Source: an uncultured Pelagibacteraceae bacterium (GTDB lineage Bacteria > Pseudomonadota > Alphaproteobacteria > Pelagibacterales > Pelagibacteraceae). Taken from it: a stretch of DNA of 64,000 bases. Positions 55,754 through 58,740 of this stretch are shown piece after piece. A model generated the notes under the pieces. It saw nothing but the letters and a program-made list of their open reading frames with translations, had not been told where the DNA came from and made no database searches. The stretch spans positions 1 to 64,000 of the forward strand of contig CACPEZ010000001.1 in assembly GCA_902633125.1 (NCBI GenBank). Direction: 5' to 3'. A program made the translations under genes and the position numbers. Within the stretch, counting starts at the first letter, position 1. Each line of letters begins with the position of its first letter.

Positions 55754-57835
55754 ATGAAAATACCACAGCTTAAAAAAAAACCAGAATTAAAATCTTGTCA
55801 CAACGTAACTTGGGAAGACGATTATAGTTGGATACATCAGGAAAATATACTTGAAGTATTGAAAGATGGTTCAAAATTATTGCCAGAGGTGAGAAAATAT
55901 CTTGAAGATGAAAATGATTATTTTAGTCATCAAATGTCAGATACAAAAGAAATTCAAAAAGTTTTATTCGATGAAATTAAAGGAAGAATTAAACTTGATG
56001 ATGAATCTCTTCCGTTTAAAGATGTAAGATATAGTTACTGGACAAAAACAACAACAAAAGGAAATTATTCTATAAAGTTAAGAAAAAAAATTGATTCTGA
56101 TGAAATAGAAGAAATTTGGAATGGTGATTTAGAAAAAGCAAAGCTTAAAACAGAATATTTTGGGCTTGGAGACTTAGAAGTTAGCTATAACGATAAATTA
56201 CTAGCTTATTCATTAGATTTAAAAGGATCTGAATATTACACCATACATATAAGAGATATTAAAAGTCGAGAGCAAGTTGGTGAAAAAATTGAAAATACAA
56301 GTGGTGGAATAACATTTAGCTTAGATGACAAATATATTTTTTACTCTAAGCTTGATGACAATCACAGACCAAGAGAAATTTACAGGCATGAAATTGGAAC
56401 TCCTACTAGTAAAGATATTCTTATATTTAAAGAAGAAAGTGAAGCATTTACTGTAGGAATAGGTCTTAGCTCTGACGAAAAGTATTTTTTTATTACGTCA
56501 TCTGATCATAATACGTCCGAACAGTATTATTTTAAAGCAGATGAAATAATTCCAAAACCAAAATTAATTGATAAAAGAAAAAGAGGGATAATATATTCTG
56601 TTAATTCATGGAATGGTAATTTCTATAAACATACAAATGAAGATGCAGAAGATTTTAAGATCGAAAAGACAAATGATTTAGAAAAAAAGGAGTGGGAAAC
56701 ATTTATACCTGCACGAGAAGAGGTTTTAATTGGAGGATTAATTTTTTTAAATGATTGGATTATAAGATCTGAAACTTCTAATGCATTATCAAAATTAATA
56801 TTAAGAAATCCAAAAAATGATGAAGAAGAAGAAATATTTTTTTCAGATGAAAAAGTTATTGTTCCTGGTGTGTCGTTAACCCAAAGAGATAGAAATACTG
56901 ATACCGTTTATTTATCATATTCATCACCAAAAACTCCCGGAAGGACTTACCTATACAATCTTAAAACAAAAGAGAAAAAATTAGTTAAAGAACAAGAGAT
57001 TCCTAGTGGCCATAATTCTGATGACTACATAGTTGAAAGATTAGAGTGTACCTCTCATGACGGAAGAATGGTTCCTATAACTATAACAAGACATAAAAAA
57101 ACTAAATTAGATGGATCTGCAAAATTATTATTATATGGGTATGGATCTTATGGTAGTTCTATGTCACCAAGTTTTTCCTCAACCAGAATAAGTTTAATAG
57201 AGCGAGATATTATATGGGTAACTTCTCATATTAGAGGCGGTATGGAAAAAGGAATGAAATGGTGGAAAGAAGGAAAGTTATTAAACAAGAAAAATACTTT
57301 TGAAGATTACATTGCTTCTGCAAAATTTTTAATTGAAAAAAAGTTTACGTCTAAAGGTAATATTATTGGAATGGGTGGATCTGCTGGAGGTCTTTTAATG
57401 GGAGCCGTTGTTAACAAAGCGCCTGAATTATTTTTGGGTATTGTTATGGCTGTTCCTTTCGTTGACTCGTTGACCACGAACTTAGACCATTCGTTACCAT
57501 TAACAGTCGGCGAATTTGATGAATTTGGAAATGCTAAAGATAAAAAAGAACACTTTGATTACATATTTTCATATGCACCTTATAACAATATTAAAAAGAT
57601 GGATTACCCAAACATTTTGATAACAACAAGTTTAAGTGATAACAGGGTATTATTTGATGAGCCAGCAAAATTTACTGCAAAATTAAGGGATTACAAAACG
57701 GATAACAATTTACTTTTATTAAAAACAGAAATGAATGCAGGTCATGGAGGAAAATCTGGGAGAGATGGAGCAATTGAGGAGATTGCAGTTGACTACGCGT
57801 TCGCTTTGAAAATAGCTGGAAAACTAAACACTTGA
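55754..57835 (+). CDS. ptrB: S9 prolyl oligopeptidase family (oligopeptidase B-like)
   Basis: This 693-residue serine peptidase has an N-terminal propeller domain and a C-terminal alpha/beta hydrolase domain. The nucleophile Ser lies in IIGMGGSAGGLLMG near residue 540, the Asp in TSLSDNRVLFDEPAK near residue 620 and the His in NAGHGGKSGRDG near residue 663. The family motif VPITITRHKK precedes the hydrolase domain. It likely cuts peptides after basic residues like PtrB, but specificity is inferred. No signal peptide is present, so it acts in the cytoplasm. Confidence 0.9.
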   Translation: MKIPQLKKKPELKSCHNVTWEDDYSWIHQENILEVLKDGSKLLPEVRKYLEDENDYFSHQMSDTKEIQKVLFDEIKGRIKLDDESLPFKDVRYSYWTKTTTKGNYSIKLRKKIDSDEIEEIWNGDLEKAKLKTEYFGLGDLEVSYNDKLLAYSLDLKGSEYYTIHIRDIKSREQVGEKIENTSGGITFSLDDKYIFYSKLDDNHRPREIYRHEIGTPTSKDILIFKEESEAFTVGIGLSSDEKYFFITSSDHNTSEQYYFKADEIIPKPKLIDKRKRGIIYSVNSWNGNFYKHTNEDAEDFKIEKTNDLEKKEWETFIPAREEVLIGGLIFLNDWIIRSETSNALSKLILRNPKNDEEEEIFFSDEKVIVPGVSLTQRDRNTDTVYLSYSSPKTPGRTYLYNLKTKEKKLVKEQEIPSGHNSDDYIVERLECTSHDGRMVPITITRHKKTKLDGSAKLLLYGYGSYGSSMSPSFSSTRISLIERDIIWVTSHIRGGMEKGMKWWKEGKLLNKKNTFEDYIASAKFLIEKKFTSKGNIIGMGGSAGGLLMGAVVNKAPELFLGIVMAVPFVDSLTTNLDHSLPLTVGEFDEFGNAKDKKEHFDYIFSYAPYNNIKKMDYPNILITTSLSDNRVLFDEPAKFTAKLRDYKTDNNLLLLKTEMNAGHGGKSGRDGAIEEIAVDYAFALKIAGKLNT

Positions 57836-57836
57836 T

Positions 57837-57866
57837 CTTGAAATATCAAAATTAATTACCATATAA
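57837..57866 (+). promoter_or_regulatory. Candidate RpoH (heat-shock) promoter of hsp20
   Basis: A -35-like CTTGAAA at 57837-57843 and a -10-like CCATATAA at 57859-57866 are 15 bases apart, near the alphaproteobacterial RpoH consensus. A similar pair occurs before groES. Transcription would begin near 57871, giving an approximately 58-base 5' UTR that contains the ROSE-like element. Confidence 0.65.
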
Positions 57867-57869
57867 ACA

Positions 57870-57925
57870 TTGTTAGTCGCCTAATGGGGCTAGCAATAAA
57901 TAAACTTGCTTAATTAAAGGAGGAT
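57870..57925 (+). promoter_or_regulatory. ROSE-like RNA thermometer in the hsp20 leader
   Basis: The leader can form two hairpins. The first pairs 57870-57881 with 57886-57896 (TTGTTAGTC with GGCTAGCAA, then CC with GG after a bulged G) around TAAT. The second pairs CTTGCT (57905-57910) with AGGAGG (57918-57923), burying the Shine-Dalgarno site: U10-A18, C9-G19, a G8/G20 mismatch, U7-A21, U6/G22, C5-G23 (offsets from 57900). The UUGCU-to-AGGA pairing with a G-G mismatch is the hallmark of ROSE elements. Function is inferred. Confidence 0.65.
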
Positions 57926-57928
57926 AAT

Positions 57929-58375
57929 ATGACAAGTAAGGATCTATCAATTTTCAACTCACTTCGGCCTTTCTCAATTGGTTTTGACGATATGTTTGAC
58001 CAATTCGAAAGTATGTTGGGCAATGGTGGTTTAAGTATGCAATCAAACTACCCGCCTTACAACATAAGAAGAACTGGCAAAGATAACTACTCAATTGAAG
58101 TTGCTTTAGCTGGTTTTAACAAAAAAGATGTTGAGGTAGAGTTTGAAGATAATCTATTAACTGTAAGAACTAAACAAGTTGATAGAAGTGAAAACAAAAA
58201 CCAAGATGGAGAGATAATCCACAAAGGTATATCGCAAAGACATTTTGCGAGATCATTTACAATTGCTGATGATGTAAAAGTGAATGGTGCAGAGTTAAAA
58301 GATGGTCTTTTAACAATTGCATGTGAAAGGATTATCCCGGAACATAAAAAAAAGAAACTTATTGAAATTAAATAA
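57929..58375 (+). CDS. Small heat-shock protein, Hsp20/IbpA family
   Basis: This 148-residue alpha-crystallin-type chaperone holds unfolding proteins. The N-terminus RPFSIGFDDMFDQFESML is typical of the IbpA-like alphaproteobacterial group, followed by the alpha-crystallin domain (NIRRTGKDNYSIEVALAGF and EVEFEDNLLTVRTKQ) and a final GLLTIACERIIPE block. It is expressed from an RpoH-like promoter with the ROSE-like leader. A strong AGGAGG site lies at 57918-57923. A stable hairpin follows the stop. Confidence 0.95.
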   Translation: MTSKDLSIFNSLRPFSIGFDDMFDQFESMLGNGGLSMQSNYPPYNIRRTGKDNYSIEVALAGFNKKDVEVEFEDNLLTVRTKQVDRSENKNQDGEIIHKGISQRHFARSFTIADDVKVNGAELKDGLLTIACERIIPEHKKKKLIEIK

Positions 58376-58383
58376 GTACCTTG

Positions 58384-58406
58384 CTTGTGGGGCTAGTCCC
58401 CACAAG
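58384..58406 (+). terminator. GC-rich hairpin after hsp20
   Basis: CTTGTGGGG (58384-58392) pairs with CCCCACAAG (58398-58406) around CTAGT, a very strong nine-base stem. No T run follows on the plus strand. It may protect the message end or block read-through into the convergent lipoprotein gene, whose stop lies two bases on. Confidence 0.6.
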
Positions 58407-58407
58407 G

Positions 58408-58740
58408 CTAAATACATCCACTAGAGCTAAATCCGATAATAATCCCTGATGCATTCACCTCAAATTTTCTTTCACAAGGAATTCCATATTTTTTTGTTTT
58501 GTAGATAAGCATTTCATTTCCAAGTTCATTGACAAAATCTTCTGAAGGTGAGCCTAATTCTAATCTCATCTCATTAACTTCTTTTCCAACGAATTGACCA
58601 AATTTTTCATTCTCTTTTTCAGCCACCTCATCAGATTTCTTTTTAATTGTTTGGCATCCAGTTAAAAAAATTATTGTTAATGTGATAAACAGAGCAATAA
58701 ATTTTTTTGATAAAGTATTATTTTTAAAAGCAATAATCAT
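58408..58740 (-). CDS. Small lipoprotein, BamE/SmpA-like
   Basis: The 110-residue protein has a lipoprotein signal region with a hydrophobic segment (about residues 13-27) ending in the lipobox LTGC at residue 29. The mature domain has VGKEVNEMRLELGSPSEDF, the small conserved helix-turn that resembles BamE/SmpA-type proteins, and a Cys pair, one in GIPCERKF and one at the C-terminus in SSSGCI, which could form a disulfide. It is probably an envelope lipoprotein; a role in outer-membrane assembly is possible only by family analogy. It is divergent from the ABC operon. Confidence 0.7.
   Translation of the reverse strand: MIIAFKNNTLSKKFIALFITLTIIFLTGCQTIKKKSDEVAEKENEKFGQFVGKEVNEMRLELGSPSEDFVNELGNEMLIYKTKKYGIPCERKFEVNASGIIIGFSSSGCI

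Follow-up and report, generated by a model that had tools for sequence, protein, structure and literature searches.

The analysed window is a stretch of 64,000 nt of DNA from an uncultured Pelagibacteraceae bacterium, and the locus described here comprises the ibpA (hsp20) gene with its leader and 3' flank. The ibpA coding sequence occupies positions 57929..58375 of the plus strand, starts with an ATG codon at 57929-57931 (read from the window sequence) and encodes a product of 148 aa. The product of 57929-58375 matched the Pfam HSP20 family (PF00011) with 64.7 bits at a cut-off of 20.8, which confirms the hsp20 identity proposed in the first-pass annotation. The SAR11 host named there was also correct: the window belongs to a Pelagibacter genome, and the comparison loci are those of Pelagibacteraceae / Ca. 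Pelagibacter. A small convergent gene on the minus strand (58408-58740) gave no Pfam match.

A putative sigma32-type promoter was located at 57837..57866 of the plus strand, with CTTGAAA at 57837-57843 and CCATATAA at 57859-57866; the CTTGAAA / CCCATAT-type pattern is what we take to be the sigma32 consensus. TTGAA was present in 101 of 103 distinct leaders. When the best CCCATAT-like -10 match was sought within a 12-18 nt spacer behind TTGAA, the spacer was 15 nt in 98 of the 101 TTGAA leaders, and the distance from the end of the match to the first hairpin of the leader was 5 nt in 91 of them. A stricter joint promoter pattern fitted 91/103 leaders, and an RpoH gene scoring above the NCBIfam curated cut-off was found in all seven genomes tested, including the window's own. 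Because the promoter ends just 5' of hairpin 1, the transcript should begin at this hairpin, and the ibpA transcription start is predicted at about 57871-57874, the foot of hairpin 1. A start downstream of 57905, which had been named beforehand as evidence against a thermometer, is thus not what the promoter position predicts.

The genus sample had ibpA in 43 of its 44 good genomes and the order sample in 224 of 248, nearly always once. A covariance model of the leader (R1), built from 16 leaders of one loop length, gave one match each in 128 of the order's 148 genomes. Comparison by eye of the first 30 rows with the gene starts showed the match adjoining ibpA in 29; in the 30th (G432) the leader and a gene fragment are on different contigs. 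The 20 genomes without an R1 match belong to the sister family (12) and to Pelagibacteraceae (8). The five of the former whose leaders were inspected have longer ones with UCGCU, and one other is without ibpA; among the latter seven had no ibpA match and one (G190) gave weak partial matches and no HSP20 match, and an intact ibpA was found in none of these eight. Neither an ibpA match nor a leader match was obtained in the Pelagibacteraceae genomes G335, G383, G414, G372, G419, G402 and G086, whose completeness is rated at 90 % or more, so that gene and leader may have been lost together. In the sister family (L154-L160, L029, L030) the leader is longer, contains additional hairpins and carries UCGCU, and codons 2-4 vary. 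The two-hairpin form of the leader combined with the frozen codons described below was seen only within Pelagibacteraceae. The gene sets used, including 80 Pelagibacteraceae / Ca. Pelagibacter loci, are related by descent, and counts on the tree were used where possible. A search of viral_contigs for phage copies of the anti-SD arm, the Shine-Dalgarno sequence (SD) and ATGACAAGTAAGG gave 0 exact matches.

The 78-nt segment 57868-57945 has a folding z-score of -2.84, equalled or bettered by 2 of 200 shuffles, so the leader fold is more than chance. Hairpin 1 spans 57869..57897 of the plus strand. In the window fold 57869-57881 pairs with 57886-57897, leaving a single bulged G at 57879 and giving the core [G]CC-UAAU-GG, and both hairpins, the first of them imperfect, are present as they had been described from the sequence. 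Across 67 representative leaders 96.7 % of the cells of hairpin 1 were paired and 7 of its 9 pairs showed changes on both sides; neither the pairing percentage nor the covariation score was reached in any of 500 shuffles. The covariation check that had been suggested for both hairpins is therefore positive for hairpin 1 (7/9 pairs), and covariation is not demonstrable for hairpin 2, which hardly varies.

The bulged-G form of hairpin 1 (bulged G, then CC-loop-GG) was recognised in 99 of 103 Pelagibacteraceae leaders, in 25 of 30 leaders from other alphaproteobacterial families, taken as the best-matching loci of 192 sampled genomes, and in the ROSE_3 consensus; of 600 mononucleotide shuffles, 64 showed it. 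The ibpA leader of E. coli K-12 (L200) folds with the same bulged-G core, GCC-UGAU-GG. In the sister family a GCA...UG form was seen in three of the four leaders inspected and none in the fourth. The bulged-G hairpin 1 seems, from this distribution, to be an old part of ROSE leaders, and the conservation of its core suggests a bound partner, perhaps IbpA.

The second hairpin is formed by the anti-SD arm CUUGCU (57905..57910, plus strand), which carries the ROSE motif U(U/C)GCU kept in relatives, and the SD AGGAGG (57918..57923, plus strand), with which it pairs with a G.G mismatch; the positions first given for both were exact. The arm reads CUUGCU in 101 and CUCGCU in 2 of the 103 distinct Pelagibacteraceae leaders, a G faces the G of the SD in all 103, and the partner is AGGAG in 102 leaders and UGGAG in one. 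Loss of the UUGCU/AGGA pairing in relatives, which had been considered as possible counter-evidence, was not observed, as U(U/C)GCU faces the SD in 103/103 leaders. Being universal and nearly invariant, this pairing is one that covariation cannot test. The lower C-G pair of the SD core is present in 88 leaders and missing in 15, and the loop-side pair is U-A, not G-C, in 102 of 103. Hairpin 2 and the codon helix discussed below were counted on anchored segments; MAFFT displaced the CUUGCU arm or the SD.

The predicted strength of hairpin 2 depends on the sequence included. The consensus fold of 98 leaders without coding sequence past the AUG gave an anti-SD:SD probability of 0.97 at 15 °C and 0.91 at 37 °C, and the predicted cost of opening the region from SD to AUG, again without further coding sequence, fell from 7.5 kcal/mol at 5 °C to 2.8 kcal/mol at 40 °C. 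With codons 2-5 included, the minimum-energy fold of the window pairs the arm with the codons and does not form the SD hairpin, and with coding sequence the predicted opening cost in the window leader was only 2.2-4.5 kcal/mol at 5 °C. In folds of whole mRNAs anti-SD:SD pairing was 0.30-0.32 at 15, 25 and 37 °C, with no temperature trend.

The number of pairs 5' of UYGCU in hairpin 2 averaged 2.55 in the 103 leaders (1 pair in 50 of them, 5-7 in 34) versus 4.9 in 29 other alphaproteobacterial leaders and 4.8 in ten sister-family leaders, two of which come from the same genome. The predicted energy of hairpin 2 at 20 °C was -5.7 kcal/mol here versus -12.3 kcal/mol in the other alphaproteobacteria and -7.8 kcal/mol in the sister family, groups whose base compositions differ. 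On these predictions the thermometer looks weakened in most of Pelagibacteraceae.

The distance between the foot of hairpin 1 and the AUG is 52-61 nt in the 103 leaders, with a median of 57. The leader had been described as about half the size of classic ROSE elements. It is indeed short and has two hairpins, but it is not half-size as a kind, since the Rfam ROSE_3 model has 69 positions and aligns along its whole length to 57871-57934. The score of the window was 23.3 bits versus a gathering threshold of 43, so that Rfam at gathering returned no match for the window; likewise, 0 of 20 other alphaproteobacterial loci matched any ROSE model at gathering. Searches by E-value on 19 + 9 loci gave one further ROSE_3 match (L013, 28.3 bits), the rest being unrelated.

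The Pelagibacter leader resembles the ROSE elements of Pseudomonas ibpA (PMC3669281, as far as that account was available) in the gene controlled, the sigma32 promoter, the presence of two hairpins only, the stable hairpin 1 and the U(U/C)GCU motif facing the SD with a G out of register. The bulged G of hairpin 1 is shared with the ROSE_3 consensus, and by our reading of this consensus RF02523 stands for the Pseudomonas ibpA thermometers. In the available part of that work hairpin 2 alone confers regulation and the authors' own term for these elements is minimalistic (Krajewski 2013, PMC3669281). The proposal of a new candidate minimal thermometer therefore does not stand, the two-hairpin ROSE of Pseudomonas ibpA having already been published and tested. 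The Pseudomonas SD core is, however, described there as flanked by G-C pairs on both sides. Here the loop-side G-C pair is missing and the ROSE_3 score is below gathering; because that pair is U-A, the leader was filed as ROSE-type and was not assigned to the Pseudomonas short-ROSE subtype. A fourU thermometer was rejected, the arm being CUUGCU or CUCGCU in 103/103 leaders with no four U facing the SD.

With the classical alphaproteobacterial ROSE elements the leader shares UYGCU (29 of the 30 leaders sampled) and the bulged-G hairpin 1 noted above, although it has fewer hairpins. UUGCU with its G bulged, as in a crystal structure, or facing G, as in the NMR structure of the B. japonicum ROSE element, is common to the leader and to these structurally solved elements, which belong to other genes; a latch of the kind proposed below is not mentioned in the parts of those accounts available, and in the same way the available part of the Pseudomonas ibpA work describes no partner downstream of the stop codon. 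The leader, having the motif, the G.G apposition and a stable 5' hairpin in the 5' UTR of a small heat-shock gene, agrees with the first-pass assignment to the ROSE type. It is very probably a ROSE-type RNA thermometer of two hairpins, which would respond to heat.

The start of the coding sequence is unusually constant. Positions 57932..57941 of the plus strand (ACA AGT AAG G, codons 2-4 and the first base of codon 5) form the partner of an element behind the gene, and 57934-57940 are in addition complementary to the anti-SD arm. Nucleotides +4 to +13 read ACAAGTAAGG in 236 of 243 complete distinct genes of Pelagibacter and its nearest genera (g8, g9); these genes, taken from 297 loci, encode proteins more than 75 % identical to the window IbpA. 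On a tree of 121 distinct ORFs codons 2, 3 and 4 underwent 0, 0 and 0 synonymous changes, whereas each of the other 98 conserved degenerate codons underwent at least 2, and the median of all 101 was 10. In the 243-gene set the corresponding numbers were 1, 0 and 1 versus a median of 21 for the conserved codons among codons 5-40. The chance of obtaining this codon triplet from codon usage is 0.012 in one gene. Both AAG and AGT are fixed here, although within ibpA AAG, the rarer of the two Lys codons, accounts for 16 % and AGT, one of the minor Ser codons, for 17 %. The downstream ABC-transporter gene was rejected as a codon control for being too uniform (57 distinct sequences, 9 of 84 codons frozen).

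Synonymous recoding was applied to the folding of the 5' end only, and the native codons barely raised the opening cost: 11.13 versus 11.05 kcal/mol for native and recoded versions at 20 °C (48 leaders), 14.04 versus 13.98 at 10 °C and 6.06 versus 5.57 at 40 °C.

The 3' element, CCUUGCUUGU, lies at 58379..58388 of the plus strand and is complementary to 57932-57941 over 10 nt with one G.U pair. Its consensus, CCUU(G/A)CUUG(U/C), stands directly behind the stop codon; NNUU(G/A)CUUG(U/C) was found there in 241 of the 243 distinct genes, and the CUU of the element begins within about 12 nt of the stop codon in 242 of 243 listed distances. The variants were CCUUGCUUGU in 139 genes, CCUUACUUGC in 42, CCUUGCUUGC in 36, CCUUACUUGU in 17 and ACUUGCUUGU in 5, with ACUUACUUGU and UCUUACUUGU occurring once each and altered forms in L322 and L024. 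The element is complementary to ACAAGUAAGG over 9-10 nt. The pairs at +5 to +8, +10 and +11 are kept in 243/243 genes, that at +9 in 242, +12 in 240, +13 in 237 and +4 in 164. In an earlier set at least 9 consecutive pairs were possible in 76 of 77 distinct flanks, versus 2.1 % of shuffled flanks. At the ibpA 3' end CCTTRCTTGYGG was found in 13 of 16 Pelagibacter genomes scanned, one of which had one extra copy; two of the three genomes without it had no ibpA match and the third was G007, the source of L024. In the sister family CCTTRCTTGYGG was found in 0 of 10 genomes.

The 3' half of the element is also part of a 3' hairpin, CUUGUGGGG-CUAGU-CCCCACAAG (58384..58406, plus strand), the 5' arm of which overlaps the element, so that any pairing with the codons must compete with this hairpin. 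The minimum energy of the 3' flank was below -10 kcal/mol in 88 of 88 distinct flanks, and the stem covaries (160 T-A, 75 C-G and 3 T-G). It is a strong hairpin without a U-run, which in the window fills the gap up to the stop codon of the convergent gene. Its classification as an ordinary intrinsic terminator was rejected, with 0 terminator-like sites found in 57750-58450. The CCUU of the element lies outside the hairpin and is as conserved as the rest of the element (C 234, C 243, U 243 and U 243 of 243), and the bases before it vary. On the tree the base opposite U+9 switched between G and A 28 times. In 191 of the 243 genes the base after the hairpin's 3' arm is U; as G and A would also pair with this U, the switching is not decisive for a helix with the codons.

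Seven of the 243 genes carry other letters at +4 to +13. Two of these show matched changes. In L322 (AAG to AAA) the native pairing was -11.1 kcal/mol versus a mean of -8.0 when its codons were paired with 120 common elements, and in L286 (AAG to AGA) -13.3 versus -7.8 kcal/mol, 0 of the 120 being as good in either case. The altered elements paired with the common codons nearly as well as with their own (L286 -12.9, L322 -10.6 kcal/mol), so the compensation is one-sided; both form additional pairs deeper in codon 5 and past it. In L024 (AGA) stability was not restored (-7.6 kcal/mol, with 89 of 120 common elements as good), and in L308, L310, L023 (AGG) and L290 (ACG) the pairing is kept by wobble, which says little. 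The change to Arg occurred once on the tree, and the neighbours of L322 have unaltered codons and elements. Two compensated lineages are a small number, and they give good but not final support for the helix.

Unconstrained folds of whole mRNAs gave the helix a mean probability of 0.51 (40 of 70 assembled mRNAs). In a further set with different ends (60 of 243) the mean was 0.32 at 20 °C and fell to 0.03 once codons 2-4 had been replaced by synonymous ones. In 12 mRNAs the helix probability was 0.31-0.47 between 5 and 65 °C with no clear fall, and in the window mRNA, where it was 0 at 5-15 °C, it reached 0.98 at 45 °C. A cold lock, by the anti-SD:SD pairing or by the helix, was not seen in folding of complete mRNAs, for which long-range predictions are rough.

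The explanation that we favour, with a rough probability of two in three (0.67) for the whole, is a ROSE leader combined with a selected long-range latch between codons 2-4 and the 3' element. That the helix itself is selected for appears probable from the pattern of conservation; the odds were set slightly lower than at first because the 3' hairpin could also explain the G/A switching. In a cool cell hairpin 2 would mask the SD of an ibpA transcript made by sigma32 mainly under stress, with hairpin 1 serving as a stable 5' cap. The CUUGCU:SD pairing would be weak and open on warming, a step that homology supports. Roughly two thirds of the leaders lack most of the lower stem by which hairpin 2 is stabilised elsewhere in alphaproteobacteria. 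In Pelagibacter and the nearest genera a second interaction, that of codons 2-4 with the element behind the stop codon, may have been added. The finished transcript would close on itself, the helix covering the coding side and the ROSE hairpin the SD side, and as such a helix could form only after the 3' end is made, it would be a latch on finished transcripts. Since the ribosome footprint includes codons 2-4, their pairing should hinder initiation. The latch could be opened by heat or by translating ribosomes, or be used for decay through double-strand cleavage. If the helix forms in the cell, as we infer, it may block initiation or expose the mRNA to such cleavage. That it acts as a translational latch is put at just short of an even chance. 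A messenger held from both sides, in which the earliest ribosomes on nascent transcripts have the advantage and finished transcripts, once heat or translation ends, are closed or tagged for cleavage, is marginally more tentative, and a latch that is itself opened by heat is doubtful, the folding not predicting such opening.

The frozen codons could instead be preserved by pairing with the anti-SD arm, which would then have two partners, the 3' element being incidental. An arm:codon pairing of 7 bp is possible in 95 of 103 leaders and of 6 bp in 5 (94 and 4 without counting the AUG), as opposed to only 3-5 bp in the other alphaproteobacteria (29/29). The consensus fold with 18 nt of coding sequence at 15 °C gave 0.96 for arm:codon versus 0.02 for arm:SD, and with 15-21 nt the arm:codon state was the more stable in 89-95 of 98 leaders. 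This preference weakened with longer coding sequence: at 15 °C the consensus probability of arm:codon pairing was 0.34 with 36 nt and 0.55 with 60 nt, the latter length leaving the arm:codon state the more stable one in only 11-56 of 98 leaders. Moreover, the 7-bp register covers only +6/+7 to +12/+13, yet ACA (+4 to +6) is likewise frozen, including in the 24 leaders of the C..A type, where the arm stops short of ACA in this register. The rare codon variants are unmatched in the arm, whereas two of them are matched in the 3' element. The swap of bases flanking the arm (A..U 74, C..A 24, A..A 3, U..A 2) was rejected as a sign of arm:codon compensation for having too few changes, only 6 on the tree with 2-4 independent pairs. 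The arm as the cause of the freezing is thus the strongest of the competing explanations and still has the odds clearly against it.

Temperature could also act indirectly, IbpA repressing its own mRNA through the bulged-G site of hairpin 1 and being titrated away by aggregates. The E. coli IbpA, in the part of PMC10474464 available, binds and represses its own 5' UTR, a function lost in R93A, and the residues R93, R97 and Y34 of E. coli align with R104, R108 and Y41 of the window IbpA (K98 aligns with S109). The recurrence of the hairpin 1 core in alpha- and gammaproteobacteria also speaks for autorepression, as does the response of P. ubique to sulfur limitation, for which ibpA is given as 3.69-fold in mRNA and 7.63-fold in protein (column CS, in the part of PMC5069961 available). 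A binding site in hairpin 1 was, however, not found in the available part of the E. coli account (PMC10474464). Autorepression by IbpA is in any case compatible with a thermometer and is no replacement for it, and as the explanation of the leader we consider it unlikely.

It is quite improbable that the leader is an ordinary short ROSE element and the frozen codons are unrelated to it, reflecting a structure-free start or codon choice in early elongation. The ROSE part can stand alone, as hairpin 2 alone regulates in Pseudomonas in the available part of PMC3669281, and recoding lowered the predicted unpaired probability of the SD to 0.17-0.24 versus 0.35-0.42 with the native codons. This reading does not fit the fixation of the rarer AAG and the minor AGT. 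AAA changed the predicted 5' fold little, so the 5' fold does not explain AAG, and the conserved element behind the stop codon and the matched changes are left unexplained. A pair of DNA sites for one regulator in opposite orientation, with no RNA helix, is very improbable: read as DNA most copies of both arms fit RCAAGYAAGG, but 180 of 243 genes have G and 62 have A as the partner at +9, precisely the bases that pair with U, and the extra pairs in L286 and L322 extend into codon 5 and beyond.

A ROSE leader combined with a latch has partial counterparts. In the icaR mRNA of Staphylococcus aureus the 3'-UTR pairs with the SD, and this is linked to lower translation or exposure to RNase III, and to decay (PMC3868564, as far as available). 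As in icaR, an element behind the gene is complementary to the translation start of its own mRNA; the partners there are the SD and a long 3'-UTR, whereas here they would be codons 2-4 and an element near the stop codon. In the thermoregulation of fHbp the coding sequence takes part in thermal control of initiation (PMC4999090, in the part available), through anti-ribosome-binding-site sequences in the coding region and not, as proposed here, through codons pairing with a 3' element.

The regulatory device of Pelagibacter ibpA, conserved throughout the genus, would consist of a leader of about 60 nt and 10 nt of 3' flank. With a real latch, two separately known mechanisms would be joined in one messenger, and synonymous codons of a heat-shock gene would be preserved through pairing with the 3' end of their own mRNA. 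Other genes could then be searched by a simple criterion, namely early codons that are frozen and have a short matching element after the stop codon. The frozen codons and their 3' partner are the point that the first-pass annotation missed; the shortness of the leader is not itself new. SAR11 bacteria have relatively few transcriptional regulators, according to the available part of PMC13198564. In the accessible portions of the SAR11 / Pelagibacter literature on RNA thermometers, ROSE and ibpA, a survey concerned with the leader and not with the 3' element, the leader is not named, and this applies to PMC2864753, PMC9111926, PMC5069961 and PMC6429828. The last of these (Stav 2019) lists, in the part available, a 'possible RNA thermometer' in intergenic regions of SAR11 HIMB5 without naming the gene, and the Pelagibacter ibpA leader may already be in its table. 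The available part of Meyer 2009 (PMC2704228) does not mention heat shock or a thermometer.

The 3' element was absent from the 14 flanks seen in genera g5, g6 and g7 and family f2, which are without ACAAGUAAGG. In g7 and g5 (among L149-L153) the genes begin MSK and MSN with AGUAA(G), which allows 7 and 6 nt, respectively, of pairing with the anti-SD arm, counting the G of the AUG, and the hairpins downstream of the gene are different ones; g6, with UCGCU, lacks both partners. In the sister family, genus g4 has three related genes (L029, L154, L157) whose codons 3-6 and 3' flank match over 9 nt, in letters other than those of Pelagibacter; this is either chance or a second version of the latch.
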